Positions 39,731 through 60,569 of a DNA stretch of 64,000 bases are shown here, one piece after another. Under the pieces are notes generated by a model, which did not search any database, had not been told where the DNA came from, and saw only the letters and a list, made by a program, of their open reading frames with translations. Source of the stretch: Rhizobium sp. ZPR4. Its GTDB lineage: Bacteria > Pseudomonadota > Alphaproteobacteria > Rhizobiales > Rhizobiaceae. Position numbers and translations under genes: made by a program. The stretch is taken from NCBI RefSeq assembly GCF_040215725.1, contig NZ_CP157969.1, positions 248,001 to 312,000 of the forward strand. The letters are read 5' to 3'. Position 1 is the stretch's first letter, and the number at the start of each line of letters is the position of its first letter.

Positions 39731-39749
39731 TTTACCGTAACGTACTTCC
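39731..39749 (+). promoter_or_regulatory. Envelope-regulon motif copy 1
   Basis: TTTACCGTAACGTACTTCC, ending 47 bases before the start of the beta-barrel gene at 39797 and oriented toward it. One of eight copies of TTTACNGTWRCGTACTTNC in the 39.7-60.6 kb cluster. Confidence 0.8.
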
Positions 39750-39796
39750 TTCGTCCGCGTTGGATGCCAGTATGGCAAGATCATCGGGAGCAAAAA

Positions 39797-40591
39797 ATGA
39801 ACCGCACCATCTTCTTGCTGGCGCTTGTCTCGGCGACACCAGTGCTTGCCGAAGACGACGCAGACGAATTGGCTCGAAAGGTCTCCAATCCCGCCTCATT
39901 CATGGTGAGTGTTCCGGTCCACAGCGATTTCGACATCGGTCGCTGGGGCGATGGCAAAGCCTATTCCGCCACGCTCGACATAGAACCGGTCATTCCATTC
40001 GCACTGACCGATGATTGGAACATGATCTCCCACACTGACATCCCCATCGCCTATAGCGATCCCGTCGGCTCGGCAGGCGGGCGGCTTGGGATTGGCGATA
40101 TCAGCCAGAATCTTTCCTTTACGCCAGCCCGCCATGGCCTCTTGGTCTGGGCGTTCGGACCGGAATTCTCGCTTCCAACGGCAACGGATGATCGGTTCGG
40201 GACGGGAAAGCTTTCCATAGGACCTTCGGGGCTCCTGCTACTGCAGACGAAGTCGATGAGCATTGGTCTGTCGGCGGACCATCTATGGTCGGTGGCCGGC
40301 GCGGGCAGCAAGCTGCGGGTCAGTACAACGGAAATCCAGCCCTTCCTGGCCTGGCATATCGGGCAAGGACGGACGATCTCGACCAATATCGACTTTTCGT
40401 ACGACTGGGTGGCACACGACTACACGCTGCCCGTATCCCTTTCCTTCTCGAAGATCATGAAATTCGGCGAACAGACGGTGAGCGTGTCGGTCGGCGCGAA
40501 ATACTGGCTCGAAGGACCGAAAGATGGACCGCAATGGGGCCTGAAGGCAGGGCTCGTCTTCCTTTTTCCGCAAAAGACAAGCGGGAGCTAG
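39797..40591 (+). CDS. Predicted outer-membrane beta-barrel protein
   Basis: The 264-residue product has a Sec signal (MNRTIFLLALVSATPVLA, cut before EDDAD). It consists of alternating amphipathic strands, with short FGPEFSLPTATDDRFGTGKLS and IGLSADHLWSVAGAG segments, and ends in a hydrophobic final strand (GLKAGLVFLFPQ). This looks like the small transporter/SphA/MetA-pathway type outer-membrane family, like the genes at 57210 and 60623. The GGGAG site 6 bases upstream decides the start at 39797. It has its own copy of the regulon motif, marking it as a member of the envelope cluster. Confidence 0.75.
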   Translation: MNRTIFLLALVSATPVLAEDDADELARKVSNPASFMVSVPVHSDFDIGRWGDGKAYSATLDIEPVIPFALTDDWNMISHTDIPIAYSDPVGSAGGRLGIGDISQNLSFTPARHGLLVWAFGPEFSLPTATDDRFGTGKLSIGPSGLLLLQTKSMSIGLSADHLWSVAGAGSKLRVSTTEIQPFLAWHIGQGRTISTNIDFSYDWVAHDYTLPVSLSFSKIMKFGEQTVSVSVGAKYWLEGPKDGPQWGLKAGLVFLFPQKTSGS

Positions 40592-40635
40592 ACGACACCC
40601 GCTCCAAAAGTGTTCTGTAAGCGTCCCATCCGCAC

Positions 40636-41775
40636 CTAACGCTCGAAAACGAGATAATTCTCCCAAGCCCTGATCCTCAATAGGATCCTGCGGATAAACG
40701 CAAACTCGACCCAGTGATCGGTATAGACTGCAACCACTGCGGTGGCACCGCCGGGCAGATTGAAGCGTGAGACATCATCGACGATATCGACAATCAGCAT
40801 CACCCGCCCCTGACCGAACGGAGGGCTTGGCGAAAGCAACGTGCCAGAGGGCTCAAGCTGCCCTTCGGCCATATATTGCAAGACATTTTCTACCTTGCCC
40901 TTGAAGACACGGCCGGGGATGCCGGCAAAGGAAATTTCCGCCTCATCGCCAACCCGCACCCGCTGCAGCGCAACCTGATCAAAGGACGCAGCAAATATCC
41001 TACGGTCCGTATGGATGAACGTCATAACCGGCTTTAAGGGCAACGAGACAGCCATCATCCCAGGATGAAGGAAGACTTGCGTGGCATAGCCATCGGTCGG
41101 TGCCTGGTAGACGCTCTGCTCCAGCTCGAATTCTGCTCTGGCAAGTTCGGCCTCCAGCTGGGCAACATTGGTGTCGACACCATCCACTTTGTTGTTGGCG
41201 ACCAGTTCCGCCTGCTCGGCCTGCGCCTGTGCGGCCGCAAGCGACGCCTCCGCGGCAATGTAGGTGTTGCGCAAATCCTCGACCTGCTCGGTGGAAAATG
41301 GGGATCGTGTGGGATTTCGATTGGCGGCCGCGTGCCGCTCATAATCGTCCTTGGCCCTATCCCGGCTGGCAGACGCCGCGTTGACCGCCGCCTTTGCCGC
41401 CTTTAGAGCCGCCTGTTGCTCGGCGACAGCCTGTTCTGCCGCTACCAAAGCCGCTTTCTTGCGCTTCACAGCATATTCGAATGGGCGCGGATCGAGACGA
41501 AAGAGCACGTCCCCCTTCTTAACCGGCGTATTGGCCGCAACCGGCACGTCTATGACCTGCCCGTTGACAGTAGGGCTGATCGGCGTTGCATAAAAGTAGA
41601 TACGACCGTCGGTCGAGAACGGATGATTGTAGCTCATCAGCACTATGATCCCACCGACCAGGAAGAAGCCGGCAACCACCGCCGTCGTAACAGTCCACTT
41701 TGTCAGGGGAACGCGCAGAAACCGAAACAGCACCACGCAAATGGCGATATAGATGAGGCAGAGCAGCGTCGTCAT
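40636..41775 (-). CDS. HlyD-family membrane-fusion protein (YiaV-like)
   Basis: The 379-residue product has N-terminal membrane helices (residues ~1-20 and ~27-48). A biotinyl-lipoyl-like half follows (ISPTVNGQVIDVPVAANTPV, then KKGDVLFRLDP), then a long Ala/Glu/Lys coiled-coil hairpin (~95-200), the second lipoyl half (YQAPTDGYATQVFLHPG) and a beta-barrel domain. With the overlapping upstream DUF3302 gene it reproduces the E. coli yiaV-yiaW pair. It lacks any adjacent ABC or RND pump, so its partner is unknown. It is the last gene of the reverse-strand operon starting at 45282. Confidence 0.88.
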   Translation of the reverse strand: MTTLLCLIYIAICVVLFRFLRVPLTKWTVTTAVVAGFFLVGGIIVLMSYNHPFSTDGRIYFYATPISPTVNGQVIDVPVAANTPVKKGDVLFRLDPRPFEYAVKRKKAALVAAEQAVAEQQAALKAAKAAVNAASASRDRAKDDYERHAAANRNPTRSPFSTEQVEDLRNTYIAAEASLAAAQAQAEQAELVANNKVDGVDTNVAQLEAELARAEFELEQSVYQAPTDGYATQVFLHPGMMAVSLPLKPVMTFIHTDRRIFAASFDQVALQRVRVGDEAEISFAGIPGRVFKGKVENVLQYMAEGQLEPSGTLLSPSPPFGQGRVMLIVDIVDDVSRFNLPGGATAVVAVYTDHWVEFAFIRRILLRIRAWENYLVFER

Positions 41776-42077
41776 TCGACGGACGACCTCCGTGCCACTA
41801 ACTGTTTTTCCAAATCGGCGACACGCGCCTCCAGCTTGGCATGGTCGGTGCCCCAGCCACGATCAGGACGATAGGCCATCGCCCAGATCCAGAGGAAGGG
41901 CCAGATTGCATGCAGCGTAAAGAGGCTGACCCATCCAGCCGCCATGATCGCATCCTGATGCGGATGGTTTCTCGACTTGGCGATCTCATAGGGAATGTCG
42001 TGGATCGCGATCAAACCATAGACGAATACCAAGATGACGAAGACGAGGATTGCAAGTGCGATATAATCCAGGATCAT
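41772..42077 (-). CDS. DUF3302 inner-membrane protein (YiaW-like)
   Basis: The 101-residue product begins MILDYIALAILVFVILVFVY and contains IHDIPYEIAKSRNHPHQDAI and AGWVSLFTLHAIWPFLWIWA, the DUF3302/YiaW signature, with two transmembrane helices and a short C-terminal coiled coil. Its stop overlaps the HlyD start by four bases, so the pair is translationally coupled. Function unknown; always found with a HlyD partner. Confidence 0.9.
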   Translation of the reverse strand: MILDYIALAILVFVILVFVYGLIAIHDIPYEIAKSRNHPHQDAIMAAGWVSLFTLHAIWPFLWIWAMAYRPDRGWGTDHAKLEARVADLEKQLVARRSSVE

Positions 42078-42304
42078 CTTTGCCGCTCCCGCCTTGGTTC
42101 CCGTTCTTGCACGGCAGTGCCGCTCTCAATCGGCAGACAGGACCATGGACCTGCAAGGTCCCATTGACCGATGACATCGCCGATTTGCAGCCTTGGCGCG
42201 ACTTCGCGCCGGAAGCCACAGCGTCCCTGGCTTCCTGAGCGTTCCATCTCTTCACATGCCCGATCGCAGTGACATGCGACACATCCACGAGCCGACACGG
42301 CGGC

Positions 42305-43747
42305 CTATTTCACCTCGACGAAGTCAGCTGGCTTCCAGGTACCGTCGAAGGCGGGCTTGTCCGGGCCGTAGATACGAATGTAGGCAAACCAGCCTCGTCC
42401 GGGAACGGTCTTGATCCACCGGCCCTCCTGGCCCCGAGGGGCTGTCGGTCCGAAGTAAAGATCGACCGGATCGCTGCCCTTGACATCCTTGAGTTCGAAC
42501 AGCGAGCGGAGCGCTGCCTTGCCCTGGTCCGTCTGAACTTCCGATCGGGTCTGCGCGTCATAGGCTGTGACAGACCAGAAGAGCTTGCCGGGAACAGGCT
42601 GCGGGATCGACAATTTGTAAGTCTTGCCACCATCAAGCCAGGCGCCCGATGCGTCACGCGCTCCAAGCCAATAGAGGGAGCCTGCGCCTGCGGTGCGGCG
42701 GAACATCGCCGGTGAGGTGACGATCGCCTGCGCAAACCAGCGATCGCGCGCTTCGAGATCGACGCCCGCCGGCGTCTCGAACTGGGCGCTGCCCGGCACC
42801 AGACCGACCCATTCCCATTTCCGGTCGGGCCAGGCGATCTTGTCGGCGCGCCGGCTGTCGAAGGCCGAAACAAGAAGCTGGTCGCGCCCGTCTTTCGCAG
42901 CCTTTTCGAGGATCGCTTTCATCCGATCGTTGGGCTTGAAGTCTTTGCCCTTTTCGATGCCGAGTGCCTGCAGCAATCCGTACATCGGCAGGAATTTTTC
43001 GACGATCGGCTCCTGCTGAATGATGTCATTCAACTTCTGCCAGAACTGGATATTGTCTTCCCATTTGAGAGATGTGCTATCCAGATCCATCTTGGTGGTA
43101 TCGACGAACTTCAGTCTCTGCTGTGGATCCGCCAAAGGATAGACCTTGATCGCCTCGAGCGCTTTCAATGCCTTGTCCTGATCACCTCCGACAGGAAGAG
43201 CACGCACTGCGAGCAGGTTTTTGTAGGTCGGTGTTCGGCCAACCAGATATCCCTTCGGAATCTTGCCCTGATAGTCGGGGCCGACGATCAGGTGTTTTCC
43301 GCCCTTACCCGCATCCGGCCCCGGCAATCCCATATCGAGAACCCAGCCCTGATTGTGGTCGTTGACCAGACCGATATAGGCGCCCGGCGGCAACTCCACG
43401 ACAATGGGTCCCTTGGAGACATCAAGAGTTGCCGAGCCGTAGGGCGTATCGGAATTCAGTGTAAAACCAACCTGTCGCGGGCCTGCAGCGGCGGCGCCCA
43501 TGGCCTCATTGTCATTGATGCCGACGGCGCGATTTCCATTGAAGATGCCGTCGACCGACACCGTCGGATACCAGAAGCGATAGGCGACGAGCGCGCGCTC
43601 AAGGTCGGTGTCGTTTTGCGCCTTGGCACTCGTCTCCGCGGTCGGATAGCCCTGATCGAATTTATAGGTCGCAGCCGTCTCCTGGCCGAAAGCGGCCGAG
43701 GCAAGCACCGATGAAAGCAGGAAGGCGGTAACGAAGTTTCGCTTCAT
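42305..43747 (-). CDS. DUF1254/DUF1214 exported protein, copy A
   Basis: The 480-residue product has a signal peptide (MKRNFVTAFLLSSVLASAAFG, cut before QETAA). A DUF1254 domain follows (~50-180; GFTLNSDTPYGSATLDVSKG and PIVVELPPGAYIGLVNDHNQ), and a C-terminal DUF1214 domain (~370-480; LFWSVTAYDAQTRSEVQTDQ and GWFAYIRIYGPDKPAFDGTW). Both domains are beta-rich and of unknown activity. GGAG lies 7-8 bases before ATG 43747. It is 41 bases downstream of a homologous second copy and ends in the same WKPADFVEVK-type tail, so the pair arose by duplication. Periplasmic location is expected. Confidence 0.88.
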   Translation of the reverse strand: MKRNFVTAFLLSSVLASAAFGQETAATYKFDQGYPTAETSAKAQNDTDLERALVAYRFWYPTVSVDGIFNGNRAVGINDNEAMGAAAAGPRQVGFTLNSDTPYGSATLDVSKGPIVVELPPGAYIGLVNDHNQGWVLDMGLPGPDAGKGGKHLIVGPDYQGKIPKGYLVGRTPTYKNLLAVRALPVGGDQDKALKALEAIKVYPLADPQQRLKFVDTTKMDLDSTSLKWEDNIQFWQKLNDIIQQEPIVEKFLPMYGLLQALGIEKGKDFKPNDRMKAILEKAAKDGRDQLLVSAFDSRRADKIAWPDRKWEWVGLVPGSAQFETPAGVDLEARDRWFAQAIVTSPAMFRRTAGAGSLYWLGARDASGAWLDGGKTYKLSIPQPVPGKLFWSVTAYDAQTRSEVQTDQGKAALRSLFELKDVKGSDPVDLYFGPTAPRGQEGRWIKTVPGRGWFAYIRIYGPDKPAFDGTWKPADFVEVK

Positions 43748-43788
43748 GATCGGTCTCCATTCGAACTTTGCGAAAGGGCTTGTTTGCG

Positions 43789-45282
43789 TCATTTGACTTC
43801 GACGAAATCTTCCAGCTTCCAGGACTTGTCGAACCATGGCTTCAGCGGCCCGTAGAGCCTGAAGATGGTGAACCAGGACTTGCCGGGGATCGTCTGTATC
43901 CAGTTGGGATTGTCGTTCGGCTTTTCCGGCGACAGAACGATATCCGTCGAGCCATCGGCATTCTTCTTCAGGTTCTTCTCACTGGAAAGGCTCGGGAATT
44001 GCTGATCCGTCTGCAGCATCGAACGTGTCTGGGTGTCGTAGACGACAAGCGACCAGAAGTCCTTGACCGGGACATTTGCTGGCACATGCAGACGATAGGT
44101 CTTGGCGCCGTCGAATGCATTTCCATTCGCATCGAGGTTTGCGGAGGCATATTGCGAGCCGATGCCGGGCATTGCCACGGCCATGGCGGGCGTGTTGACG
44201 GTCGCCGCGTAGTAGAACATCGTCCGGGCATCGAAATTGCGCGCGCCACCCTTCGTCAGCCACTGATAGCTGCCGCCGATGAAGGGCGTGTTCCAGTGAC
44301 GATCCGAGTAGATGAGCGCTTCGCTTGCGCGGCTGCGGAAATCGATCGAGCGGGCGATCGTATTGCCGACGGCCACGGCATCGGTGAGTATTTTCTTCAT
44401 CCGCTCGTCCGGTGCGAAGGGCTTGCCCTTGACCAGACCGATGGCGTTGAACAGGCCCATCATGTCGGGGCCGTAAGAATCCTCCGGCTCTTCCTGCACA
44501 ATCTCGTTCAGCTCTTCGTAGAAGCTGAGATCGTTGGAATGAACCGTATTCATTTCGCGGCCAGAGAGCTCGATAAACTTTGCTTCATGCCTTTGCCCGG
44601 CCTGCGACAATGGATAGACGCGCATCTTCTCCTTGATGGTGTCGGCTGCGGTCTTCGGAGAGCCGTTCGTCATGAAGCCGCGGCCGAGAATGAGATTGCC
44701 GTAGGTCGGCGATTTGTACGTGAAGTAACCCTTGGGAACCTTGCCTTTGTAGTCCGGCGGAAGGATCAGATATTTGCCGCCCTTGCCCTTGTCAGGCCCG
44801 GCATTGCCGAGATCGGTCACATAACGGAACCAGAAATCGTTGACGACGCCGAGAACGTTCGGCGGGCTCTCGATGACGATAGGCCCGTCCTTCAGATCGA
44901 TCCAGCTTGCGTAATAGATGCTCTCCGTGTTGGCAGTCAGAAAGAGCGACTTGGAGTCCATCAAATCCTGAAAGATCCCGATCGTACCGTTGACGCTGCC
45001 GACTGCGCGGTTGCCGTCGCGCAGCGCAACCATCGAAGCGCCCGGGATGCCGTTCAGAAACGCCTCGACGCCGCGGCTGAAGTCGAGCTGATCGTAAGCC
45101 CTTGCCGCTGTGTCCGCCGTCGGGACGCCATCGAAGAACTCAAGCTTGCCGATCCGGGTATCGACGCTGCCCGGCGTCGTAATCTGCGCGGGTATTTGCG
45201 TGGTCATCTTGTAATCCGCAGCCTGTACGGTACCGGTGAGAACGCAGATGAGTCCAGTTGCGGCAAATACGATCGTCTTCAT
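43789..45282 (-). CDS. DUF1254/DUF1214 exported protein, copy B
   Basis: The 497-residue product has a signal peptide (MKTIVFAATGLICVLTGTVQA). A DUF1254 domain follows (FLTANTESIYYASWIDLKDG, PIVIESPPNVLGVVNDFWFR), and a DUF1214 domain (DFWSLVVYDTQTRSMLQTDQ, SWFTIFRLYGPLKPWFDKSW). It is a diverged paralogue of copy A. A GGGGGGA ribosome site precedes ATG 45282; upstream in-frame extension is not family-like. It is the first gene of the reverse-strand operon (copy B, copy A, DUF3302, HlyD) and has a regulon motif 113 bases upstream, facing it. Confidence 0.88.
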   Translation of the reverse strand: MKTIVFAATGLICVLTGTVQAADYKMTTQIPAQITTPGSVDTRIGKLEFFDGVPTADTAARAYDQLDFSRGVEAFLNGIPGASMVALRDGNRAVGSVNGTIGIFQDLMDSKSLFLTANTESIYYASWIDLKDGPIVIESPPNVLGVVNDFWFRYVTDLGNAGPDKGKGGKYLILPPDYKGKVPKGYFTYKSPTYGNLILGRGFMTNGSPKTAADTIKEKMRVYPLSQAGQRHEAKFIELSGREMNTVHSNDLSFYEELNEIVQEEPEDSYGPDMMGLFNAIGLVKGKPFAPDERMKKILTDAVAVGNTIARSIDFRSRASEALIYSDRHWNTPFIGGSYQWLTKGGARNFDARTMFYYAATVNTPAMAVAMPGIGSQYASANLDANGNAFDGAKTYRLHVPANVPVKDFWSLVVYDTQTRSMLQTDQQFPSLSSEKNLKKNADGSTDIVLSPEKPNDNPNWIQTIPGKSWFTIFRLYGPLKPWFDKSWKLEDFVEVK

Positions 45283-45395: not shown

Positions 45396-45415
45396 GTAAG
45401 TACGCAACGGTAAAT
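45396..45415 (-). promoter_or_regulatory. Envelope-regulon motif copy 2
   Basis: Reverse strand reads ATTTACCGTTGCGTACTTAC, facing the DUF1254 operon. It is back-to-back with copy 3, 30 bases away, in a divergent promoter region. Confidence 0.8.
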
Positions 45416-45445: not shown

Positions 45446-45464
45446 TTTACAGTTGCGTACTTAC
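45446..45464 (+). promoter_or_regulatory. Envelope-regulon motif copy 3
   Basis: TTTACAGTTGCGTACTTAC, 50 bases before the lipoprotein hydrolase start at 45515 and facing it. Divergent partner of copy 2. Confidence 0.8.
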
Positions 45465-45514: not shown

Positions 45515-46727
45515 ATGTATCGACGCCTGGCCATCGCGGCATTGCTCCTGCTTTCGGGCTGCGGCCATCCGTCTGGTGTGATGACACCGGTTGCGCTCAG
45601 TCCCGGCGCATTGAAGACCTCGCAGGTCGACATGCTGGTCGCAACGACCCGGCAGCCCTCCGGCAATCCGGCGACGCTGTTCAATGGCGAGCGCAGCCCA
45701 AAGCCCTATCTGACCGAGATCGCCGTCTCCATCCCGCCGAAGCGGGACCCCGGCACGGTACAATGGCCGAAGCGCCTTCCGCCCAATCCAGGCACCGACT
45801 TCGCCGTTACCCGCGTCAAGCAGATCGACACGGTCTTGAAAGGCAGGACGTGGTTCAAGCAGCATGTCGAGGATGGCCACGCCCTGGTCTTCGTCCATGG
45901 CTTCAACAACAAGTACGAGGATTCGGTCTTCCGGTTGGCACAGATCGTCCACGATTCCCGGATGAAGGCGACGCCGATCCTGTTTACCTGGCCTTCGCGC
46001 GCGAGCCTGTTTGCCTATGAATATGACAAGGAGAGCACCAACTACTCGCGTACGGCGTTCGAGCAGGCGTTGCGCATCCTGGCGCAAGATCCGAGCGTCA
46101 AGGAACATCACCATCCTTGCCCATTCGATGGGGACATGGCTTGCCATGGAATCCCTGCGCCAAATGGGCATCCGTGACGGTCACGTCAATGCAAAGATCC
46201 GGGACGTCATCCTCGCATCGCCGGATATCGATATTCAGGTCTTTGCCAAGCAATTCGTCGAGATGGGCAGTCCGCATCCCAAATTCACGATCTTCGTCTC
46301 TCAAGACGACCGTGCCCTTGCCGCCTCAAGCCTGATCACGGGCCGTGTCCAGAGGCTCGGCGCGATCAACCCGGCCGAGGAGCCGTATCGCTCACGGCTT
46401 GAGAAGGCCGGGATCACTGCGATCGATCTGACGAAGGTAAAGAGCGGCGACGGCATGAACCATGGCAAATTCGCCGAAAGCCCACAAATCGTCCAGCTTA
46501 TCGGCCAACGACTGATGACGGGCCAGACATTGACAGATTCCAACGTTCGCCTTGGAGAGGGCGTCGCCGCCGTCATCGGCGGCACGGCAAGAACGGTGGG
46601 AACGGTCGCCGCCACGACGATTTCTGCGCCGCTCACCATCGTCGAGCAGCCGAAGAAACCCCGTTCGCAAACCGATCTCGGTGCGACTTTGACCGAAGAT
46701 CCGGACTCGAAGCCACTGGCACAATGA
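45515..46727 (+). pseudogene. DUF900-type alpha/beta-hydrolase lipoprotein, interrupted by a single-base frameshift
   Basis: The first frame starts MYRRLAIAALLLLSGCG (lipobox LLSGC). It runs through DMLVATTRQPSGNPATLFNG, the HGFNNKYEDSVFRLAQIVHD oxyanion region and FTWPSRASLFAYEYDKES to DPSVKE at ~46105. It then leaves the family and stops at 46177. One frame over, the protein continues perfectly as NITILAHSMGTWLAMESLRQ with the catalytic Ser (HSMG), SPDIDIQVFAKQFVEMGSPH and a C-terminus at 46727. An extra G around 46104-46107 explains it. Reconstructed length is about 404 residues. Either a young pseudogene or a sequencing error; the rest is unblemished. GGAG precedes the start and motif copy 3 drives it. 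Confidence 0.82.
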
Positions 46728-46772: not shown

Positions 46773-46791
46773 TTTACCGTTACGTACTTCC
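46773..46791 (+). promoter_or_regulatory. Envelope-regulon motif copy 4
   Basis: TTTACCGTTACGTACTTCC, facing the sulfatase gene, about 123 bases before its start. A second TTTAC lies 22 bases upstream (46751). Confidence 0.8.
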
Positions 46792-48561: not shown

Positions 48562-48572
48562 GAACCGATTGT

Positions 48573-48604
48573 GCGGGGCGCGCCAATGTGCGCTCCGCTT
48601 TTTT
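48573..48604 (+). terminator. Rho-independent terminator after the sulfatase gene
   Basis: GCGGGGCGC pairs with GCGCTCCGC (one G-U) around an 8-base loop and is followed directly by six T. It separates the sulfatase gene from the MoxR operon, which has no motif copy of its own. Confidence 0.85.
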
Positions 48605-48629
48605 CCTTCCAACACGAAAAGTCTGTTCC

Positions 48630-50563: not shown

Positions 50564-51087
50564 TGGCGGAGGCAACGGTCAATCCAAACCGGATGGCAAA
50601 TGTCGCGTTACGCTCGCTGCATGACATTTCCGTGCCGGAGCCGGTTTCCTGGATGCCACAAACCTGGGGCTGGGCCCTTGTTGTCGTCTGCATCCTCCTG
50701 GTTCTTGCTGTCTATGGCTTTCGAGCCTTCAGACGCTACCAGCGCAATGCCTATCGGCGCGAGGCGCTGGAGCTGCTGGTAGAGATCGCTGAGACTATCC
50801 AGGTCCCAGCAACACGCCAGCAGGGCATTGACGATCTGGCCGAGCTCGTCAAACGCACGGCGCTTGCCGGCTGGAGGCGTGAACAGGTTGCGCCCCTGAC
50901 GGGGGCCAATTGGAATGCCTTCCTGGCATCAAGCGCGGATAATGACGAGAGTGTTGTCCTCAAGCGATTGTTCGACGACCTCGAATATCATGATGGAACA
51001 CCCTTTCAGCACTTGCCTTCTTCGGAGCTTACGCAACTGGTGCAGGACGCCAGACATTGGATCGAGGGACATCATGTATCAGCTTGA
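50563..51087 (+). CDS. DUF4381-domain membrane protein
   Basis: The 174-residue product has one N-terminal transmembrane helix (residues ~38-58, WALVVVCILLVLAVYGFRAF) and a helical cytoplasmic domain with AELVKRTALAGWRREQVAPL, the DUF4381 pattern. GGAGG lies 5 bases before ATG 50563, which overlaps the DUF58 stop by one base. It is a standard component of MoxR/VWA operons. Its end overlaps the next gene by 14 bases. Confidence 0.85.
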   Translation: MAEATVNPNRMANVALRSLHDISVPEPVSWMPQTWGWALVVVCILLVLAVYGFRAFRRYQRNAYRREALELLVEIAETIQVPATRQQGIDDLAELVKRTALAGWRREQVAPLTGANWNAFLASSADNDESVVLKRLFDDLEYHDGTPFQHLPSSELTQLVQDARHWIEGHHVSA

Positions 51088-52063: not shown

Positions 52064-53607
52064 TCTCCGACCTCCATTTTCTGAGACCATGGTGGCTGAT
52101 GGCGCTGATCGTGCCACTTGTGGTCATTTGGCTATCGTCGCGAACACTGGATATAAGGCGTCGCTGGAGCAGCATGATTGCGCCCCATCTACTCGACAAA
52201 TTGCTGGTCGAACCCGATCAACGTGGCAATCTGAGACCCGCCTGGTTGCTTGCGATTGTACTTGGTCTCTCCATCCTCGGTCTGGCCGGTCCGACCTGGC
52301 AGCACGAAGCGCCACCTTTCCTCGCCGATACCGCGGCACTGGTCATTGCCGTCGACCTTTCGCCGACCATGGATGCCGTTGACATAAGCCCGAGCCGGAT
52401 CGAGCGCGCAAAGCTGAAAATCCACGATATTCTGGCGACACGCCAAGGCGCCCGCACGGGCGTAATCGCCTATGCGGGAACAGCCCATCTGGTTGTTCCG
52501 CTCACCGACGACAATGCCCTGATCGAGACCTATACGGACGCCCTTGCAACCGGCATCATGCCGAAGCCGGGGAAAGATACGTCGGCTGCGCTCAATCTGG
52601 CCGGCGGGTTGATGAAGGCGGAGGGCGGCCCCGGAACCATTCTGCTGCTGACCGACGGGGTCGAGAAGGCAGCTGAGGCAGCAGCAAAGCAGATCGATAG
52701 TAATCTGCTGATACTGGGCTTCGGGACGGAGGCCGGCGGTGTGGTCGACTCAGCAGGTGGTCGTGCTTTTTCGCCCGATGGCGGAAAAAGGCTCAATTCG
52801 GCGCTCGACCTAGGCGCTCTGCGCGGCACCGCAACCGGGATGGGTGCAGAGGTGGCAACCATGACCGATGACGATGCGGATGTCCGGTGGATCGCTGAGA
52901 ATATCCAAGCAAATTTCATCCGGCAAAATACCGGGAGCGGTGATCGCTGGCGCGATCTGGGATGGTGGCTTGTGGTGCCAACGGTGCTTGCATTCGCGCT
53001 CTCGTTTCGCCGCGGCTGGGTTGTCAAGGTGGCGATCGTAGTCCTCACCATGCGGCTTATCGTGCCGACGGAAGCCCGCGCCGCAGACTTCGCCGACATG
53101 TGGCTCACCTCCGATCAGCAAGGGCAACTGGCGTTCGAGCGCGGACAGTTCGAGCGCGCGGCAAGCCTGTTCAAGGATCCGAACTGGAAAGGCGTCGCGC
53201 TCTATCGGGCCGGCCGCTACCGACAGGCATCGCAAGCTTTTGCGATGTCAGACACAGCGGAGGCCTGGTACAACCAGGGCAATTGCCTGGTTCATACAGG
53301 CGAGTTCGACGAGGCAATCGCGGCCTATCACAAGGCACTGGAGAAGCGGAAGGCATGGCCGGAGGCTGAGGCAAATCTCGCCATTGCCGAACTCTTGAAA
53401 AAGAAACAGCAAGAGGACGACGAAGAGGCACAGGAACCGAACGAAAAACCTGATAGCATTCAGTTCGATGACAAGGGCAAGCGCGGCAAGGCTGGCATGA
53501 TCGATATGGCCGAGCAGACTTCGGAGATGTGGATCAGGAACATCGCCGTCAGCCCAGCAGACCTGATGGCGCGAAAGTTTGCCCTCGAGGATCGCGGGGC
53601 GCGGTGA
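52060..53607 (+). CDS. BatB/BatC-like VWA protein with TPR tail
   Basis: The 515-residue product has two N-terminal membrane helices. A VWA domain follows with MIDAS LVIAVDLSPTMDAVD and ILLLTDGVEKAAEAA. There is another helix pair around residue 310-345, then TPRs (WKGVALYRAGRYRQASQAFA, AWYNQGNCLVHTGEFDEAIA, AYHKALEKRKAWPEAEANLA) and an acidic tail. This joins the BatB and BatC functions in one chain, as in many proteobacteria. It couples to the BatA gene and to the BatD gene by 4-base and 1-base overlaps. Confidence 0.9.
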   Translation: MISDLHFLRPWWLMALIVPLVVIWLSSRTLDIRRRWSSMIAPHLLDKLLVEPDQRGNLRPAWLLAIVLGLSILGLAGPTWQHEAPPFLADTAALVIAVDLSPTMDAVDISPSRIERAKLKIHDILATRQGARTGVIAYAGTAHLVVPLTDDNALIETYTDALATGIMPKPGKDTSAALNLAGGLMKAEGGPGTILLLTDGVEKAAEAAAKQIDSNLLILGFGTEAGGVVDSAGGRAFSPDGGKRLNSALDLGALRGTATGMGAEVATMTDDDADVRWIAENIQANFIRQNTGSGDRWRDLGWWLVVPTVLAFALSFRRGWVVKVAIVVLTMRLIVPTEARAADFADMWLTSDQQGQLAFERGQFERAASLFKDPNWKGVALYRAGRYRQASQAFAMSDTAEAWYNQGNCLVHTGEFDEAIAAYHKALEKRKAWPEAEANLAIAELLKKKQQEDDEEAQEPNEKPDSIQFDDKGKRGKAGMIDMAEQTSEMWIRNIAVSPADLMARKFALEDRGAR

Positions 53608-54902
53608 TGAGATGGCTGCTATTCCTGTTACTATTGATGCCGGCCCCGGCCATGGCCGCCGATCCATTTGCCCGCGCGCGCATCGAAGACGCGAAGGCCG
53701 TCGTACCTGGTCAGCAGGTGCATCTGACGGTCGAGGTCCTTGCACCGAATTATTTCACCTCGCCGCCACAGTTTCCCCTGTTCGACCTGCCGGATGCCAT
53801 GGTCACCCTTCCGGAAGAGCGCGCGCGTACTGCGGTGCAATCGATCGACGGGACGCAATATTCCATGATCGCGCATACCTATCTGATCGTTCCGCAGGCC
53901 ACGGGGACATTCGATGTGCCACCAATTCGAATAGAACTTGGCTATTTTGGAGATGGTGTTCCGGTCGAGGCGGTGACAGCAACTCAGCCGGTCTCCTTTA
54001 CCGTTGCAACCGGCACGAATGTTGCGGATGGGAGCACAGCCGTCGAGTTTGCGGCTCGTAGACTTGAGGTCACCCAGACCTTCGACCGTGATCAGGACCG
54101 GTTGAAGACCGGCGATACCCTTGTGCGTACCATTTCGGTGACCGCCGCCGATACCCAGTCGATGCTGATGCCGCCGGTCAACCTCGGTGTTGTTGATGGG
54201 CTTCACCAATATGTGAAGCAGCCAGCGCTTGCCGATAATATCGCTCAGGATAGAGGCACGGTGAGCCGGAGAACGGAAACCATCGCCTATACGATGACAG
54301 CGGCCGGGAGCTTCATGCTTCCGGAGATCAATTATCCCTGGTTTGATATCAATTCTCACATGTCGGCGGTTGCCAGTTTGCCAGCAAGGACAATCCTCGT
54401 GTCACCGGCGCCCGCAGCCACTGGAATCGCCCCCGCATCCCACCGTGAAATACGAGACGTCCTTGAAGAGCGGCGCGCCGTCGCCATTTGGATTCTTGGC
54501 ATCTTATTAGTGGTCAGTGTCTGTTGGCGTGCACGCGACCTTCCGGAAAAAATCGCCGAGATGACGAGAAATGGCCTCGCGCGCATTTCGCAATCGCGCC
54601 GATACCGGCTCAGGCGTCTCAAATCCACAATTGCCTCGGCCGATCTGCCAAAGGTCTACGCCGCACTCCAGCAATGGAGCAGGTCCGAGGGCTATCATAC
54701 ACTTCATGCATGGGCGAATGCGCATCAGCCGGAACTGCGCGGGCATATTCAAGCGCTCGAGGCTAGGCTCTTTGGCGGAAGCCCAAATGATGTCGATCGA
54801 AAACGCATTGCAGCGCTTGTCGCAAGAAGACAGACACAACTCTTTGTGCGATCGTCGGGCCGACACCTTCCCGCGCTCAATCCGACCTCGAAGCCCCGCT
54901 AG
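53607..54902 (+). CDS. BatD-like exported/membrane protein
   Basis: The 431-residue product has a signal peptide (MRWLLFLLLLMPAPAMA, cut before ADPFARARI). Beta-sandwich repeats follow (VVPGQQVHLTVEVLAPNYFT, IRIELGYFGDGVPVEAVTAT, DTLVRTISVTAADTQSMLMP). A transmembrane helix lies at ~300-318 (VAIWILGILLVVSVCW) and a C-terminal cytoplasmic helical region completes it. This matches BatD of oxygen-tolerance operons. It closes the MoxR operon; the next gene has its own promoter motif. Confidence 0.85.
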   Translation: MRWLLFLLLLMPAPAMAADPFARARIEDAKAVVPGQQVHLTVEVLAPNYFTSPPQFPLFDLPDAMVTLPEERARTAVQSIDGTQYSMIAHTYLIVPQATGTFDVPPIRIELGYFGDGVPVEAVTATQPVSFTVATGTNVADGSTAVEFAARRLEVTQTFDRDQDRLKTGDTLVRTISVTAADTQSMLMPPVNLGVVDGLHQYVKQPALADNIAQDRGTVSRRTETIAYTMTAAGSFMLPEINYPWFDINSHMSAVASLPARTILVSPAPAATGIAPASHREIRDVLEERRAVAIWILGILLVVSVCWRARDLPEKIAEMTRNGLARISQSRRYRLRRLKSTIASADLPKVYAALQQWSRSEGYHTLHAWANAHQPELRGHIQALEARLFGGSPNDVDRKRIAALVARRQTQLFVRSSGRHLPALNPTSKPR

Positions 54903-54951: not shown

Positions 54952-54970
54952 TTTACTGTTGCGTACTTAC
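54952..54970 (+). promoter_or_regulatory. Envelope-regulon motif copy 5
   Basis: TTTACTGTTGCGTACTTAC, 51 bases before the formylglycine-generating-enzyme start at 55022 and facing it. Confidence 0.8.
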
Positions 54971-55021: not shown

Positions 55022-55987
55022 ATGTCACTGGCGTTCGACGGCGTTGAGCAGGAAGGCATAGCCCCTGCCGGCATGATATGGATACCGGGGCAAACCTACA
55101 GGATGGGATCGGACAATCACTATCCTGAGGAAGCGCCGGCGCATCCGGTCAAGGTGGACGGCTTCTGGATCGATGAGACGCCGGTCACAAATCGCCGTTT
55201 CATGCAATTCGTCAACGACACCGGCTATGTGACGACGGCGGAAAAAGCGCCCGATCCCAAGGATTATCCCGGCGCTCTTCCATCAATGCTGCGGGCCGGT
55301 TCGCTGGTCTTTTCGCAACCCAAAGCGATCGACGGATCGGATATCCGGCAATGGTGGGCGTTCAAGTTCGGCGCAAACTGGCGCCGCCCGCTTGGAGGCC
55401 TGAGCGACCTTCGCGGAAAACTCGATCACCCCGTCATTCATGTCGCCTGGAGCGATGCCAGGGCCTATGCCGACTGGGCAGGACTGGATCTGCCGACGGA
55501 GGCGGAGTGGGAACTGGCCGCCCGCGGTGGACTGGATGACAGCGAATTTGCCTGGGGAGACGAGTTGCAGCCGGGTGGCGAGCTCATGGCCAACACCTGG
55601 CAGGGAACGTTTCCGACCCATTCGACCAAACCGAAGGGCCAGGAACGCACCACACCCGTCCGTTCGTTTCCCGCCAACGGCTACGGGCTCTACGATATGA
55701 TCGGCAATGTATGGGAATGGACGGCCGACTATTGGACGACACGCCACCCCGAACCGGCGGCGCATTCCTGTTGCATTCCAAGCAATCCGAGGGGTGGCAA
55801 CGTTGAGGCCAGTTTCGACCCTCGACAGCCGAATATAAAAATTGCGCGACGCGTGCTGAAGGGTGGCTCGCATTTGTGTGCCCCGAACTACTGCCGTCGC
55901 TACCGACCCGCCGCCCGGCATGCCGAGCCGGAGGACACATCCACGAGCCATGTGGGCTTTCGATGCGTGAGACGAATTAAAGCGTAA
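55022..55987 (+). CDS. Formylglycine-generating enzyme (sulfatase-modifying factor)
   Basis: The 321-residue product matches FGE/SUMF1: GMIWIPGQTYRMGSDNHYPE at the start, VDGFWIDETPVTNRRFMQFV, HVAWSDARAYADWAGLDLPT, EAEWELAARGG, GYGLYDMIGNVWEWTADYW and the active-site GGSHLCAPNYCRRYRPAAR with the C-x4-C pair. The enzyme uses copper and oxygen to oxidise the sulfatase Cys to formylglycine. No signal peptide is evident, so it should act on the nascent sulfatase in the cytoplasm. GGAGG 5 bases upstream decides ATG 55022 over 54995. It and the sulfatase gene at 46915 share the regulon motif. Confidence 0.95.
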   Translation: MSLAFDGVEQEGIAPAGMIWIPGQTYRMGSDNHYPEEAPAHPVKVDGFWIDETPVTNRRFMQFVNDTGYVTTAEKAPDPKDYPGALPSMLRAGSLVFSQPKAIDGSDIRQWWAFKFGANWRRPLGGLSDLRGKLDHPVIHVAWSDARAYADWAGLDLPTEAEWELAARGGLDDSEFAWGDELQPGGELMANTWQGTFPTHSTKPKGQERTTPVRSFPANGYGLYDMIGNVWEWTADYWTTRHPEPAAHSCCIPSNPRGGNVEASFDPRQPNIKIARRVLKGGSHLCAPNYCRRYRPAARHAEPEDTSTSHVGFRCVRRIKA

Positions 55988-55998
55988 GGAGAGGTGCG

Positions 55999-57012
55999 AT
56001 GAACAGAGCTCATGATAAGATCGAGGCGGCTCTCGCCTCCTTGATCGCAGGGTTTGCCTTGCTCCTGATTGGCGTGCTCCCCGCTCTGGCGCAGGAGCCA
56101 TTGACATCATGGAACGATACGGCAGCCAAATCCCGCATCATCGATTTCGTCAAGGCGACGGTGACCCAAGGTGGTGACGGCTATGTCGCGCCCGAGGACC
56201 GGATCGCCGTTTTCGACAATGACGGCACGCTCTGGACGGAGCAGCCATATTACGTGCAGCTTGGCTTCATGCTCGACCGCGTCAAGACACTCGCGCCACA
56301 ACATCCGGAATGGAAGACGAAGGAGCCGTTCAAGAGCATTCTGAATGGTGACCTGAAGGGGTTGGCCAAGGGTGGAGAAATGGGGATCGTCGAACTGGCC
56401 ACGGCGACGCATTCCGGCATGACGACCGATCAGTTCAACAAGATCGTCACGGACTGGTTTGCCAAAGCGACCCATCCGAAGACCGGCAAGCCTTACACGG
56501 ACATGACCTATGTGCCGATGCGCGAGCTCCTGGATTACCTGCGTGCCAACGGTTTCAAGACCTATATTGTATCCGGCGGCGGCGTCGAATTCATCCGGCC
56601 GGTTACGGAGCGCCTATACGGTATTCCGCCCGAGCAGGTCGTCGGCAGCACGATCGCCACCGAATATGCGATCGTCGGTGACGTGCCGGTCCTCAAACGC
56701 CTGCCTAAGATCGACTTCGTCGATGATGGCCGAGGTAAGCCCTCGGGTATCAACAAGTTCATCGGCCGCAAACCAATCTTCGTGGCCGGCAATTCCGACG
56801 GCGACTATGAGATGATGCGCTGGGTAACTGCGGCCAAGGGGCCGGGTTTCGCGATGCTTATCCATCATACCGATGCCGACCGGGAATATGCCTATGATCG
56901 CCAGTCGGTCTTTGGTAAGCTCGATAAGGCACTGGACGAGGCGCAACGCCGCAATTGGCTTGTCGTGGACATGAAGAGCGATTGGAAGAAGGTCTTTGCC
57001 TTTGAGCAATAA
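55999..57012 (+). CDS. Exported HAD-superfamily phosphatase
   Basis: The 337-residue product has a long hydrophobic N-terminal signal (ALASLIAGFALLLIGVLPALA, cut before QEPLTS). The HAD motifs follow: IAVFDNDGTLW (DxDGT), TYIVSGGGVEFIRPV (S/T motif), a downstream Lys region, and VAGNSDGDYEMMRW (motif IV acidic pair). It resembles periplasmic phosphoserine-phosphatase-like HAD enzymes. It follows the FGE gene by 11 bases with its own AGGAGAGG site, so it is the second gene of that operon. Substrate unknown. Confidence 0.88.
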   Translation: MNRAHDKIEAALASLIAGFALLLIGVLPALAQEPLTSWNDTAAKSRIIDFVKATVTQGGDGYVAPEDRIAVFDNDGTLWTEQPYYVQLGFMLDRVKTLAPQHPEWKTKEPFKSILNGDLKGLAKGGEMGIVELATATHSGMTTDQFNKIVTDWFAKATHPKTGKPYTDMTYVPMRELLDYLRANGFKTYIVSGGGVEFIRPVTERLYGIPPEQVVGSTIATEYAIVGDVPVLKRLPKIDFVDDGRGKPSGINKFIGRKPIFVAGNSDGDYEMMRWVTAAKGPGFAMLIHHTDADREYAYDRQSVFGKLDKALDEAQRRNWLVVDMKSDWKKVFAFEQ

Positions 57013-57209: not shown

Positions 57210-58190
57210 TTACTGCGCCGATACCGGCTTGGTGATGGACAATGGCATGGACAGGGTGACAAACACGGCATCACCGTCTGCACGGTTCTTCGTATCAAAT
57301 TCATGAAAATATTTCAGTCGGGCGGACACCGGCAGCTCTCCGACCTTGAAGTTCCAGCCGACCGTTGCACCGATCGCCATGGTTCGTCCCTTGAAATCTC
57401 CGAGCGTGGCTCCCTGTCCGCTGTCGCCGCTTACCTGCTGATAGTAGTAGCCAACCAGGCCAGCGTCGAACTGCTCATTGAAATGCTGGACCGCGGCCCA
57501 CTCAAAATGAAGCTCGTTGCCGGTCCGATAATTCGTTGCGGGATTTTCCGCATTGAAGGTCATGCCAACCGTCCCCGAAAGATCGAGGCCAATGGCTGGA
57601 TCGAGCCAGGTCATGGAGGCTGACACGTCCGCGCCCCAATGATGGAACGCAACATTGGCGATTTCGCCATCCTGATAGTCGCCGATCGGCACGTTGACCA
57701 TCACGCCGGTCTGCCAGTGAAAGTTGCCCGCTTCCCAGCCCAATAGCCCACTGATAACGGGATCCCCAACGGTGAAGACTGTGTCCGTGACGTTGCCCCC
57801 AACAGTGCGGCCGCGAGGGCCGGTCAAGGTCACATCGGCCGATGTCTTCATCCAGCCGACCGGCAACGTTGCTGACAAGCCAAACCGCCCTCCTGCGACA
57901 TCTTCCGGAAGTATCCACAAAATGGTCGGTAGCTCGAAGACCGCGTCGCCCCTGACGCCAACGGCCACCTTACCGCCTACCGGCAGAGATTTCCCCCCAC
58001 CCAGATCGCCAGAGTAAATATAGATATCATTCTGAAAATAGACACCCGGTGGCGGCGTGATGCCCGCGGCAGGGCCTTTGGATCCGAGGAGATAGAAGCC
58101 AGTCCCATTTTCCGCTGCCTGGGTTGCGGCACCCGATAACAACAAGGAAATACTTGCAGTCACCACGCGGGTCATATGATACAACTTCAT
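57210..58190 (-). CDS. Predicted outer-membrane channel (MetA-pathway/SphA-like)
   Basis: The 326-residue product has a signal peptide (MKLYHMTRVVTASISLLLSG to TQAA, cut before ENGTG). It then shows the pattern of the phenol-degradation MetA/SphA-type outer-membrane family: GTGFYLLGSKGPAAGITPPP near the start, GVYFQNDIYIYSGDLGGGKS, regular amphipathic strands, and the closing AVFVTLSMPLSITKPV strand. AGGGGA lies 5-6 bases before ATG 58190. It is downstream of motif copy 6 and lies on the same strand as the regulator gene, starting 106 bases after its end. Confidence 0.82.
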   Translation of the reverse strand: MKLYHMTRVVTASISLLLSGAATQAAENGTGFYLLGSKGPAAGITPPPGVYFQNDIYIYSGDLGGGKSLPVGGKVAVGVRGDAVFELPTILWILPEDVAGGRFGLSATLPVGWMKTSADVTLTGPRGRTVGGNVTDTVFTVGDPVISGLLGWEAGNFHWQTGVMVNVPIGDYQDGEIANVAFHHWGADVSASMTWLDPAIGLDLSGTVGMTFNAENPATNYRTGNELHFEWAAVQHFNEQFDAGLVGYYYQQVSGDSGQGATLGDFKGRTMAIGATVGWNFKVGELPVSARLKYFHEFDTKNRADGDAVFVTLSMPLSITKPVSAQ

Positions 58191-58265
58191 GCGTTTCCCC
58201 TCAAACACATCTACGCGTAGAACCCCTACAATCGACGGCAGGATGGGGCGGGTGGGCACTCCGTA

Positions 58266-58284
58266 CAAGTACGCAACTGTAAAT
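58266..58284 (-). promoter_or_regulatory. Envelope-regulon motif copy 6
   Basis: Reverse strand reads ATTTACAGTTGCGTACTTG, 75 bases before the outer-membrane gene start at 58190 and facing it. A second TTTAC precedes it by 12 bases (58291-58295 on the reverse strand). It lies just after the regulator's stop codon. Confidence 0.8.
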
Positions 58285-58295
58285 GTTGCGGTAAA

Positions 58296-60008
58296 TTACG
58301 GCTGACCATTGCTGGCGACAGCAGTGAAATTAGCACCGGCCTTGGAAAGTCCGGTTTCGAGATCGGCCACGATCTGGGGCTGCATGCGCACCGTCGCCAT
58401 TCTTTGATGAAAGAGACGTTCGAAGTCGTGATCGCGTCCCCTGGCGTCATCGAGACGAGCATTTGCATCCGGCGCGCCGAGCTGGCCCAAAGCTGCCGCT
58501 CTGACGGCGCGAACCATGAAGTCGGAGCAATTGACCTGTTCCGCCAGCAGCGACGCCTTGGACCAGTTGCCGTTTCGATAGGCATCAAGTGCAAGGACCA
58601 GCATAGCGTCGCGAGGCGGCACATCACTTTCGTCGCTGGCCGTCCGCGCAAGATCCACGCCCGCTTTCCAATAGCCCGATGAGAACAATACCAGGCCCAT
58701 CGATGCTGCAACTTCGGGGCTGTTCGGATTGAAAGAGATGGCACGGTTGCCCGCCTCGATCGCGACATCCGTCCGTCCTGCGAGAAAATGTACCGTCATC
58801 AGGGCCGTCTGCGCCCGATCTGAAAGCGGGGCGAGCGAGGCAGCCCGCTTGGCCAGTTCGAGGGCGCGATCGCGTATGGCGGCATTAATCGTATGACCAC
58901 GCGGCGATACCAGGATGCGGGCGAGCAGCGCGTTGGCATCAGGATCGTCAGGCACACGGGCAAGCGTGCGTTCCAAGCAGCCGGCAGCGGCGGCACTCTC
59001 AGCGCTGCCCCCTTCATCCAGGGCGAACTCTGCGCGAAGGACACAGGCGTTGCCAAGCGCGTCCTTCGGGTTACGTTGCATTTCGATCGTGTTGACGATC
59101 CCACGGGTTGCCGCGATGCGCCTTGCCAGTATCCCCACCATCTCTTCCCGCACGGTCCCAGCGCTTCGGCCACTGGCCTCAACCCTTTCGACACCTGATT
59201 TCAGGAGGTCACCGGAGGTACGGTCGACGATCTGCCACCAGACGCTGCGATCATCGTTATCGCCATAATATTTGATTTCGATATCGTAGCTGCGATTAGT
59301 ACTGCTCGCACGCACGCTGGCGAAGGTTGGCTTTGCCACCACCACGGTCTGAAACTGCGTCAGCACGGTGAGTAGCAAGTCACGCGCAAGGCTGGCTTCA
59401 CCAGCCATGTCGGGCGATACGGCCGACATGGTCACAGTCAATGTGGGTTTGGTCGTCATCGTCGGAGACAGATGCAGGAGACCTATTCCGGCTAGCAGGA
59501 CAACAAGGACAAGGACTGCCGCTCCCACGCCGATCCAAATGCTGCGGCGTCCCGCGGATATAGCCATTGCGGCTTCCTGCACGGACATAACCGTCGACGC
59601 AGGGGTTGCATCTGTGATAGCGGAGAGCTGATACCCTCGAACGAACGGCACTTTCAGGAACAATGTCAGATAGCTACCCTTGGGGATATGTATCGTGACA
59701 CCTAGCTCCGCGCCAAATACGCCATAATAGCTTTCGAGACTGGTTCGCAAACGGCTGATCTCGATACGAACAATGGGGTCGTTTGCTGCATCGAATCCGC
59801 TTGGACGACCGAGGACGTCAAGGGCAATCGAATAGGCCTTCACACCCTCTTCACATCCCGAGAGCCGGCGTTCGGCCAAATAGCGGAGAATGTCACGTTG
59901 CCGATCGGACACACGAAACCGGTCATCGCCGAGCAGCCGCTCAAGCTCAGCTTTGGCGTCGTCGAGCGAGACTTCGCGTTCCCCAGTCTCGTGCGATTTG
60001 ATGCTCAT
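58296..60008 (-). CDS. Membrane-anchored winged-helix regulator with periplasmic TPR domain (ToxR/CadC-like architecture)
   Basis: The 570-residue product has an N-terminal OmpR/trans_reg_C-like winged helix (~30-117: FRVSDRQRDILRYLAERRLS, DPIVRIEISRLRTSLESYYG, IHIPKGSYLTLF). One transmembrane helix follows (~157-180, SIWIGVGAAVLVLVVLLAGI), and about 390 residues outside the cytoplasm. The latter contain a domain around 190-330 and TPR-like helices at ~330-520 (AAAAGCLERTLARVPDDPDA, ALELAKRAASLAPLSDRAQT, AIEAGNRAISFNPNSPEVAA). Such proteins sense an envelope signal and act directly on DNA. It is the only DNA-binding protein inside the envelope cluster and is surrounded by motif copies, so it is the prime candidate reader. 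No motif copy precedes its own gene. Confidence 0.8.
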   Translation of the reverse strand: MSIKSHETGEREVSLDDAKAELERLLGDDRFRVSDRQRDILRYLAERRLSGCEEGVKAYSIALDVLGRPSGFDAANDPIVRIEISRLRTSLESYYGVFGAELGVTIHIPKGSYLTLFLKVPFVRGYQLSAITDATPASTVMSVQEAAMAISAGRRSIWIGVGAAVLVLVVLLAGIGLLHLSPTMTTKPTLTVTMSAVSPDMAGEASLARDLLLTVLTQFQTVVVAKPTFASVRASSTNRSYDIEIKYYGDNDDRSVWWQIVDRTSGDLLKSGVERVEASGRSAGTVREEMVGILARRIAATRGIVNTIEMQRNPKDALGNACVLRAEFALDEGGSAESAAAAGCLERTLARVPDDPDANALLARILVSPRGHTINAAIRDRALELAKRAASLAPLSDRAQTALMTVHFLAGRTDVAIEAGNRAISFNPNSPEVAASMGLVLFSSGYWKAGVDLARTASDESDVPPRDAMLVLALDAYRNGNWSKASLLAEQVNCSDFMVRAVRAAALGQLGAPDANARLDDARGRDHDFERLFHQRMATVRMQPQIVADLETGLSKAGANFTAVASNGQP

Positions 60009-60134
60009 ATCCCCAGCCCCACATGCGCAGATACACTAATGTAGGAATACGATATATATGACTATATAATGGAGGGTTGCAATACAGATTGCGAACAAAA
60101 CTAATGCGCGTTCAATCCTTTCAATTTCGACGTC

Positions 60135-60428
60135 TCAATCTGAAACGTCAGGCCCGGCTTGAAGGATGTGCTGGATCACGTCCGCTTCGATATCGCGACA
60201 GACGACCTCGTATTCCTCGACAAGACGACTGCCCTTGCCCTCCCGCTGAAATCGCTCGAGCGCATGACTTGCTTCCTCGTAGGCTTCGAAAAGATCGTCG
60301 AACTGCCTGCTCCTTGCCGCAAGGATCTGGAGACGTCCTCTCAAGGCCGGCAGCTTGAGCATGAGACGCCATAAACCGCGTTGTGCCGCTTTGCTCGCAT
60401 GACCGGCTCCGCTGTCCCGCCTATCCAT
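60135..60428 (-). CDS. Small helical hypothetical protein of the regulon
   Basis: The 97-residue product is basic at its start (MDRRDSGAGHASKAAQRGLW) and then forms one long helical region (QFDDLFEAYEEASHALERFQ, VEEYEVVCRDIEADVIQHIL). I recognise no family. Evidence that it is real comes from motif copy 7, which faces it 61 bases upstream, and from coding-like composition. ATG 60428 is the likely start; a TTG seven codons upstream is possible. It is divergent from the beta-barrel/MscS operon. Confidence 0.6.
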   Translation of the reverse strand: MDRRDSGAGHASKAAQRGLWRLMLKLPALRGRLQILAARSRQFDDLFEAYEEASHALERFQREGKGSRLVEEYEVVCRDIEADVIQHILQAGPDVSD

Positions 60429-60489
60429 CGTAACGACGACCTTCCCCAAGGAGGTTATCGATCGAGTATGAGATCACGTGCCCGAAAAC

Positions 60490-60509
60490 GTAAGTACGTT
60501 ACCGTAAAC
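60490..60509 (-). promoter_or_regulatory. Envelope-regulon motif copy 7
   Basis: Reverse strand reads GTTTACGGTAACGTACTTAC, facing the small gene at 60428. Divergent partner of copy 8, 41 bases away. Confidence 0.78.
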
Positions 60510-60550
60510 ACCTTGAAATGGGTGCCGTACCGGCATCGTTTACACGAAGA

Positions 60551-60569
60551 TTTACCGTTGCGTACTCGC
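60551..60569 (+). promoter_or_regulatory. Envelope-regulon motif copy 8
   Basis: TTTACCGTTGCGTACTCGC, 53 bases before the beta-barrel start at 60623 and facing it. Another TTTAC starts 12 bases upstream (60539), as at copy 6. Confidence 0.78.

Follow-up and report, generated by a model that had tools for sequence, protein, structure and literature searches.

The 64,000-nucleotide stretch of Rhizobium sp. ZPR4 contig NZ_CP157969.1 analysed here (positions 248,001 to 312,000; hereinafter the window) carries eight copies of a 19-bp box ahead of genes for a sulfatase, a formylglycine-generating enzyme (FGE)-like protein, DUF1254 proteins, outer-membrane-type proteins and other products and, amid these boxes, the gene of a predicted membrane protein that we propose as their regulator. 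A first-pass annotation, made from the sequence alone, described the eight copies as a promoter motif that defines an envelope regulon and is absent elsewhere in the 64 kb. A search at up to 3 mismatches to the consensus of that annotation bears out the count: the window contains exactly eight matches, compared to a mean of 0.07 and a maximum of 1 in 100 shuffled sequences. Six of the eight are identical to TTTACNGTWRCGTACTTNC, and the other two deviate by one base each (a TTGT end in the minus-strand copy at 58265, which had been placed at 58266, and a CTCGC end in the copy at 60551); the elements TTTAC, GT and CGTACT, already noted as invariant, do not vary across the eight boxes. As also claimed, all eight boxes lie outside likely genes and each is oriented toward one, and five of the eight end 47 to 61 bp before the start codon (the starts were picked by eye; all distances are given below).

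Across the 7.74-Mb genome, nine boxes are detected at no more than 1 mismatch, all inside a 25-kb segment (C3:287731-313098), the ninth being located just beyond the window at C3:313080, 67 bp ahead of a DUF2092 gene. There are no boxes at 2 mismatches and 12 at 3 mismatches, the latter within chance because the backward control gives 36 matches at up to 3 mismatches; the genome-wide motif search that had been proposed as a check thus yields one cluster, with no scatter beyond chance. An origin of the box by chance or as a repeat artefact is ruled out by the shuffles and the backward controls. Besides the ninth site, the first-pass annotation overlooked the regulator gene lying amid the boxes and an additional half-site, TTTAC or GTTAC, that lies 12 bp upstream of the box at four of the nine sites. 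A -10-like hexamer is present at seven of the nine. The boxes and genes of the window are as follows.

39731..39749, plus strand: box 1, TTTACCGTAACGTACTTCC; half-site GTTAC at 39719-39723; -10-like CAGTAT at box position 38; start codon at 39797, 47 bp away
39797..40591, plus strand: target, putative outer-membrane protein, no Pfam match, label taken from the first-pass annotation
40636-41775, minus strand: target, HlyD-like protein (Pfam)
41772-42077, minus strand: target, DUF3302 protein (Pfam)
42305..45282, minus strand: targets, two DUF1254/DUF1214 proteins
45396..45414, minus strand: box 2, ahead of the DUF1254 pair, DUF3302 and HlyD genes; start at 45282, 113 bp; no -10-like hexamer at the usual place
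45446..45464, plus strand: box 3, ahead of the DUF900 lipoprotein gene; start at 45515, 50 bp
45515..46727, plus strand: target, DUF900 lipoprotein-like gene, here split over two frames
46773..46791, plus strand: box 4, ahead of the sulfatase gene (start at 46915, 123 bp) and then MoxR/BatD-type genes
46915..54902, plus strand: targets, sulfatase, then MoxR, DUF58, DUF4381, vWA-like (by eye) and BatD genes
54952..54970, plus strand: box 5, ahead of the FGE-like gene (start at 55022, 51 bp) and the HAD gene
55022..57012, plus strand: targets, FGE-like and HAD proteins
57210..58190, minus strand: target, outer-membrane protein of the Phenol_MetA_deg type (Pfam)
58265..58283, minus strand: box 6, directly after the regulator gene and ahead of the outer-membrane protein gene (start at 58190, 74 bp); half-site TTTAC at 58291-58295
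58296..60008, minus strand: candidate regulator, 570 amino acids
60055..60082, minus strand: putative sigma70-type basal promoter of the regulator, TTGCAA-N16-CATATA
60135..60428, minus strand: conserved small protein, 97 amino acids, inherited together with the regulator
60490..60508, minus strand: box 7, ahead of the small gene and the regulator; start at 60428, 61 bp
60551..60569, plus strand: box 8, ahead of an outer-membrane protein gene (start at 60623, 53 bp) and MscS; half-site TTTAC at 60539-60543; no -10-like hexamer at the usual place
60623..63348, plus strand: targets, putative outer-membrane protein (no Pfam match) and MscS channel

The promoter geometry was analysed for sites from the window and chosen fetched loci (56 sources, a selection of the sites in the respective genomes), with gene starts and gene interiors called by our own simple open reading frame (ORF) caller. 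Removal of redundancy (70% identity over the 60 bp downstream) reduced 163 sites to 125, and 141 full-length contexts (of 144) to 105. Only one of the 125 non-redundant sites lies inside a called gene, compared to 80% of random positions, and a start codon follows no more than 150 bp downstream of 91, compared to 7% of random positions and to 12 of the 125 sites in the opposite direction; the main peak of the box-to-start distance is at 50-69 bp. In 66 of the 105 contexts, the hexamer NANNNT has its first base at box position 38, 39 or 40, whereas the best three-position window in the shuffles holds at most 27, so that a -10-like hexamer follows the TTNCNN end of the box by 16-18 bp. With the T of this hexamer taken as -7, TTTAC-N5-CGTAC is therefore placed at about -50 to -36. 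TTTAC in the same direction (at least 4 of 5 letters) recurs 12 bp upstream in 37 of the 105 contexts (shuffle maximum 6), and GTAAA at the same stringency is found at -14 in 13 and at -4 in 9. The direct TTAC-like repeat recognized earlier fits these data but is not the sole reading because the left part of the box also fits an imperfect 5-1-5 dyad. The suggestion of a directional activator site gains support from the orientation of the sites, from the spacing of the -10-like hexamer and from the co-occurrence of the box with one regulator.

This co-occurrence holds at the levels of family, genus and order (at most 6, 9 and 4 candidates, respectively, were scored per genome). Among 199 genomes of the family, representing 109 genera, the box is present in all 9 genomes with the regulator (E of at most 1e-76) and in 1 of the 190 others (Fisher test, 9e-15); the regulator matches are split by a gap, from E 4e-77 to 4e-43, and there are 34 box matches against 5 in the backward control. 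In the genus (148 genomes), 52 of the 57 genomes with a regulator relative at 1e-60 carry the box compared to 10 of the 91 without one (8e-24), with 498 boxes against 2 backward matches, and in the order (297 genomes) box and regulator occur in the same 2 genomes (14 matches against 6). Because the box is found mostly in genomes that carry the regulator gene, it is very probably the binding site of the regulator. A housekeeping promoter element is ruled out given that most genomes lack the box (10 of the 199 family genomes are positive). Local co-inheritance alone is insufficient as a full explanation because, in several genomes, the boxes are spread over many contigs (totals of 15 in G211, 15 in G269 and 17 in G323) and the fetched examples precede related genes.

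The five genus genomes that lack the box while encoding a regulator relative (36-39% identity) all belong to a well-supported separate clade with its own box variant. Among the ten genus genomes with the box and without an ortholog at 1e-60, one (G232) has a split relative. In nine genomes without the regulator (eight of the genus and one of the family), 14 of the 19 boxes precede relatives of box targets and five do not; such boxes are possible remnants or might serve another paralog. Genomes with a single match (G171, G224, G242, G251 and G277) may reflect chance because the backward control gives 2 to 6 matches per search. In G283 (L123 8876-9421), which likewise is one of the ten genus genomes with the box and no such ortholog, the small gene, the regulator and their neighbours are seemingly missing between two boxes, the box of the lost unit showing 1 mismatch; comparison of the box spacing with that in G292 suggests deletion of the regulator unit.

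The box also varies along with the regulator clade. The close orthologs are associated with TTTACNGTWRCGTACTT, and in deeper branches the left part is often GTTAC or GTAAC (the first column profile of the box was built from 114 exact sites). A separate, nested clade of eight regulators has GTAACAGTAACATYCTTGT or GTTACTGTTACATGCTTCC in place of the usual box; in G327, where regulators of both clade A and clade C are encoded, each fetched neighbourhood has a best site of the type that goes with its own regulator (the fetched loci include one of the two clade A copies of this genome). Distant paralogs (25-30% identity, with one partial match at 38%) show TACNGTNNNNTACYT in 7 of 21 loci, with 8 matches compared to 0.13 in shuffles and 0 in the backward control, and it is absent from 12 decoy loci and from window 1-37700; this pattern was chosen after 4 of its 8 matches had already been seen.

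The candidate regulator, the product of 58296-60008 on the minus strand, is annotated merely as a TPR or hypothetical protein, and the Pfam search recovers TPR-type families only, with no phosphoacceptor receiver domain. In the predicted model, a winged-helix-like domain (residues 15-119) is followed by a linker (122-158) that is disordered ahead of a transmembrane (TM) helix (158-179), and then by an alpha/beta region (189-299) and TPR helices (304-567). A hydrophobic 19-mer occupies the expected TM region in all 33 aligned regulators (mean Kyte-Doolittle hydropathy of 1.69-2.79), which, together with the model, points to a single TM helix between the DNA-binding and sensor parts, as in ToxR-like receptors. 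The alignment comprises 33 chosen sequences, leaving aside L025, which has an in-frame stop, and many weaker relatives; C322 and C344, 22 residues apart, are invariant in it. For the N-terminal domain, approximately 42 of the 50 VIA matches listed are OmpR-type DNA-binding domains, CadC and ToxR among them, and for the large folded part after the TM helix all 50 VIA matches listed are TPR-type folds. When the full regulator is used as a profile query against the PDB, the best matches are likewise TPR or TPR-bearing proteins. The top three PDB matches in a Foldseek search with the full model are to the periplasmic domain of CadC (3ly8; E 1.9e-7 to 6.8e-7, probability 1.00), albeit with low TM-scores (0.25/0.42) and an rmsd of 18 A. 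The regulator probably belongs to the ToxR-like (ToxR/CadC) receptors, with a putative OmpR-type DNA-binding domain and a putative periplasmic sensor domain.

In 44 of 47 ortholog loci, which include two identical regulators, the small gene lies on the same strand as the regulator and 113-268 bp upstream of its aligned end; the exceptions are L093 and L119, where it was not found in the 1.5-kb flanks, and L197, where it is about 13 kb away. Of these 47 loci, 34 have a box no more than 200 bp ahead of the small gene, and 32 have one no more than 300 bp past the regulator. The small protein was not found beside any of 22 loci (20 distinct) with relatives below 30% identity, mostly in 1.5-kb flanks. 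It has no Pfam or NCBIfam match; its relatives belong to Rhizobiaceae wherever named and share the conserved stretch RGLWRLMLKLPAxRGRLQIL (L190, L197, L198 and L199 were left out of the alignment). The tight linkage suggests that it is probably a partner of the regulator. In the 126-bp gap between the two genes (60009-60134), TTGCAA-N16/17-NATANN is kept in all 15 aligned loci (the spacing is 17 bases in 13 of them and 16 in the other two, the window and its closest relative) and is likely the basal promoter of the regulator. In G239, the genome of locus L093, the regulator is about 4.5 kb from the closest listed box on its upstream side (L143, around 5042), and a 1001-residue ORF was called downstream of that box.

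The genes next to the 163 sites (two sites had none) fall mainly into clusters of FGE-like proteins (23), the regulator (20), sulfatases (18), DUF1254 proteins (16), outer-membrane-type proteins (14, 10 and 4), MscS (10), DUF900 lipoproteins (9), the small gene (5) and HAD proteins (4), followed by smaller groups that include DUF2092, MoxR, DUF3300, alkyl sulfatase and bestrophin-like proteins, and by 12 single genes. The DUF900 gene at 45515-46727 consists of two overlapping frames, compared to a single frame of about 403-415 residues in relatives, which reflects either a frameshift or an assembly error. The label of an envelope regulon fits many of these targets but not obviously all: export is not evident for FGE, MoxR or the small protein, and the excess of hydrophobic N-termini is moderate (77 of 123 box targets compared to 324 of 773 other genes). 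Because two sulfatase types and FGE are among the targets, our guess is that the signal might be a sulfated or envelope-active compound.

In the source genome, the regulon is one local stretch, and this stretch is accessory. In a genome of the same species (G258), a 99% match to the window runs from 36000, the start of the query, and breaks off at 37714; window 37715-60000 and C3:308000-327000 have only scattered counterparts there, at 84% identity or less, and G258 contains no box and no regulator relative at E 1e-8. There are no tRNA genes in the window or in locus L022 and no Rfam families in window 36000-64000. At L022 13265-18829, a 1458-residue protein that appears P-loop-like by eye and has no PADLOC match adjoins a patatin-like phospholipase for which PADLOC effector models give a match (E 5e-119); this is possibly a defence module near the island.

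We consider it quite probable that the membrane protein encoded at 58296-60008 uses the box as its operator and is a divergent one-component activator of the ToxR/CadC-like type. Its alpha/beta and TPR part would reside in the periplasm and sense an envelope signal, to be relayed by the single TM helix to the N-terminal winged-helix domain. Two such domains would bind head to tail on TTTAC-N5-CGTAC, sometimes joined by a third on the extra upstream TTTAC (at about a third of the sites), covering about -50 to -32, overlapping a poor -35 element and recruiting sigma70 RNA polymerase to a weak -10. The TTGCAA-N16/17-NATANN promoter would maintain a basal supply of the regulator, the box upstream of the small gene would allow self-amplification, and the co-inherited small protein would act as a partner.

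Another regulator might instead bind the box, for example with or through the small protein, the TPR membrane protein being a mere neighbour; the linkage of the small protein is equally tight and boxes are found in some genomes without the regulator, but the small protein matches no Pfam or NCBIfam model, related boxes accompany the paralogs at 7 of 21 loci, including loci without the small gene in the fetched flanks, and the box changes in step with the regulator clade, all of which makes this unlikely. We regard it as rather improbable that the regulator binds the box as a repressor that is relieved by the signal. Sites that overlap the -35 region can also serve to block polymerase; repression fits less well, however, with the constant direction of the box and its almost constant distance from a poor -10, with a box ahead of the regulator's own unit in addition to a separate conserved basal promoter, and with the analogy to ToxR and CadC. 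That the box itself is the promoter element of an alternative sigma factor is very improbable: the fixed orientation and the hexamer 16-18 bp downstream would suit such an element, but the hexamer is sigma70-like, with A and T at the -11 and -7 places, the third half-site at a fixed phase is typical of an activator, and no sigma factor was detected among the 19 window proteins scanned with Pfam.

It appears an evenly balanced question whether the activator proposed here represents a large, so far unrecognized family of TM winged-helix/TPR activators that run many specific regulons in Rhizobiaceae, with clade-specific versions of one box grammar (TAC-NGT-N4-TAC-YTNC at -50 to -32), one subfamily that needs the small partner, and a regulon that moves between genomes and replicons with sulfatase, DUF1254 and outer-membrane targets. 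The members of such a family are currently annotated only as TPR proteins, hypothetical proteins or 'adenylate cyclase'. If the proposed circuit is real, regulator, operator and target list would come together for genes of unknown purpose (DUF1254, DUF3302, DUF2092, DUF3300 and sulfatase/FGE pairs), a big 'TPR protein' family would become testable as membrane-bound transcription factors, dozens of regulator-box pairs would form a natural data set on the co-evolution of winged-helix domains and their sites, and a membrane-tethered activator with sites over several contigs would bear on how distant DNA is found.

Several known systems resemble the one proposed here. HilA of Salmonella, which activates a horizontally acquired island, also combines a winged-helix domain with TPRs; unlike the candidate regulator, it is not known to have a TM helix. 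AfsR/SARP regulators of Streptomyces join OmpR-type and TPR domains and bind direct repeats that overlap a poor -35 element, but differ in having NOD and BTA domains and in the repeats themselves, which are 11 bp long and centred at -29.5 (PMC10936776); the BTA family is not among the Pfam matches of the candidate regulator, in which the N-terminal domain is followed instead by the linker and the TM stretch. CadC of Escherichia coli has the domain order predicted here, with a disordered linker, and a cysteine pair in the periplasmic part (PMC5430869, PMC3096576), which forms a disulfide at pH 7.6 and none at pH 5.8 (PMC3096576), and its periplasmic domain is the top Foldseek match of the C-terminal part of the regulator. 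The differences from CadC are its AT-rich, head-to-head sites at cadBA (TTAxxxxT), as opposed to a specific box with up to 19 copies per genome, and the 64 residues between its cysteines compared to 22 here. ToxR consists of a cytoplasmic winged-helix domain, one TM segment and a periplasmic domain with two cysteines, an arrangement predicted here too, and its boxes at Vibrio cholerae ompU, TNAAA-N5-TNAAT at -51 to -37, are 5-bp direct repeats with 5-bp spacing (PMC7496328), as is the box here at about -50 to -36. The sequence of the latter, TTTAC-N5-CGTAC, is different, and so is the C-terminal part of the regulator, with its alpha/beta region and TPR helices. ToxR has the partner ToxS, and the small protein may play such a role, although ToxS has a TM stretch and the small protein shows none by eye. 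No description of the box or the regulator was found in open-licence PMC papers, judged by titles and abstract starts and partly from the matches listed, in line with the first-pass view of an undescribed regulon. The best reading of the sequence data is therefore a regulon that is undescribed but of a known, ToxR/CadC-like kind.

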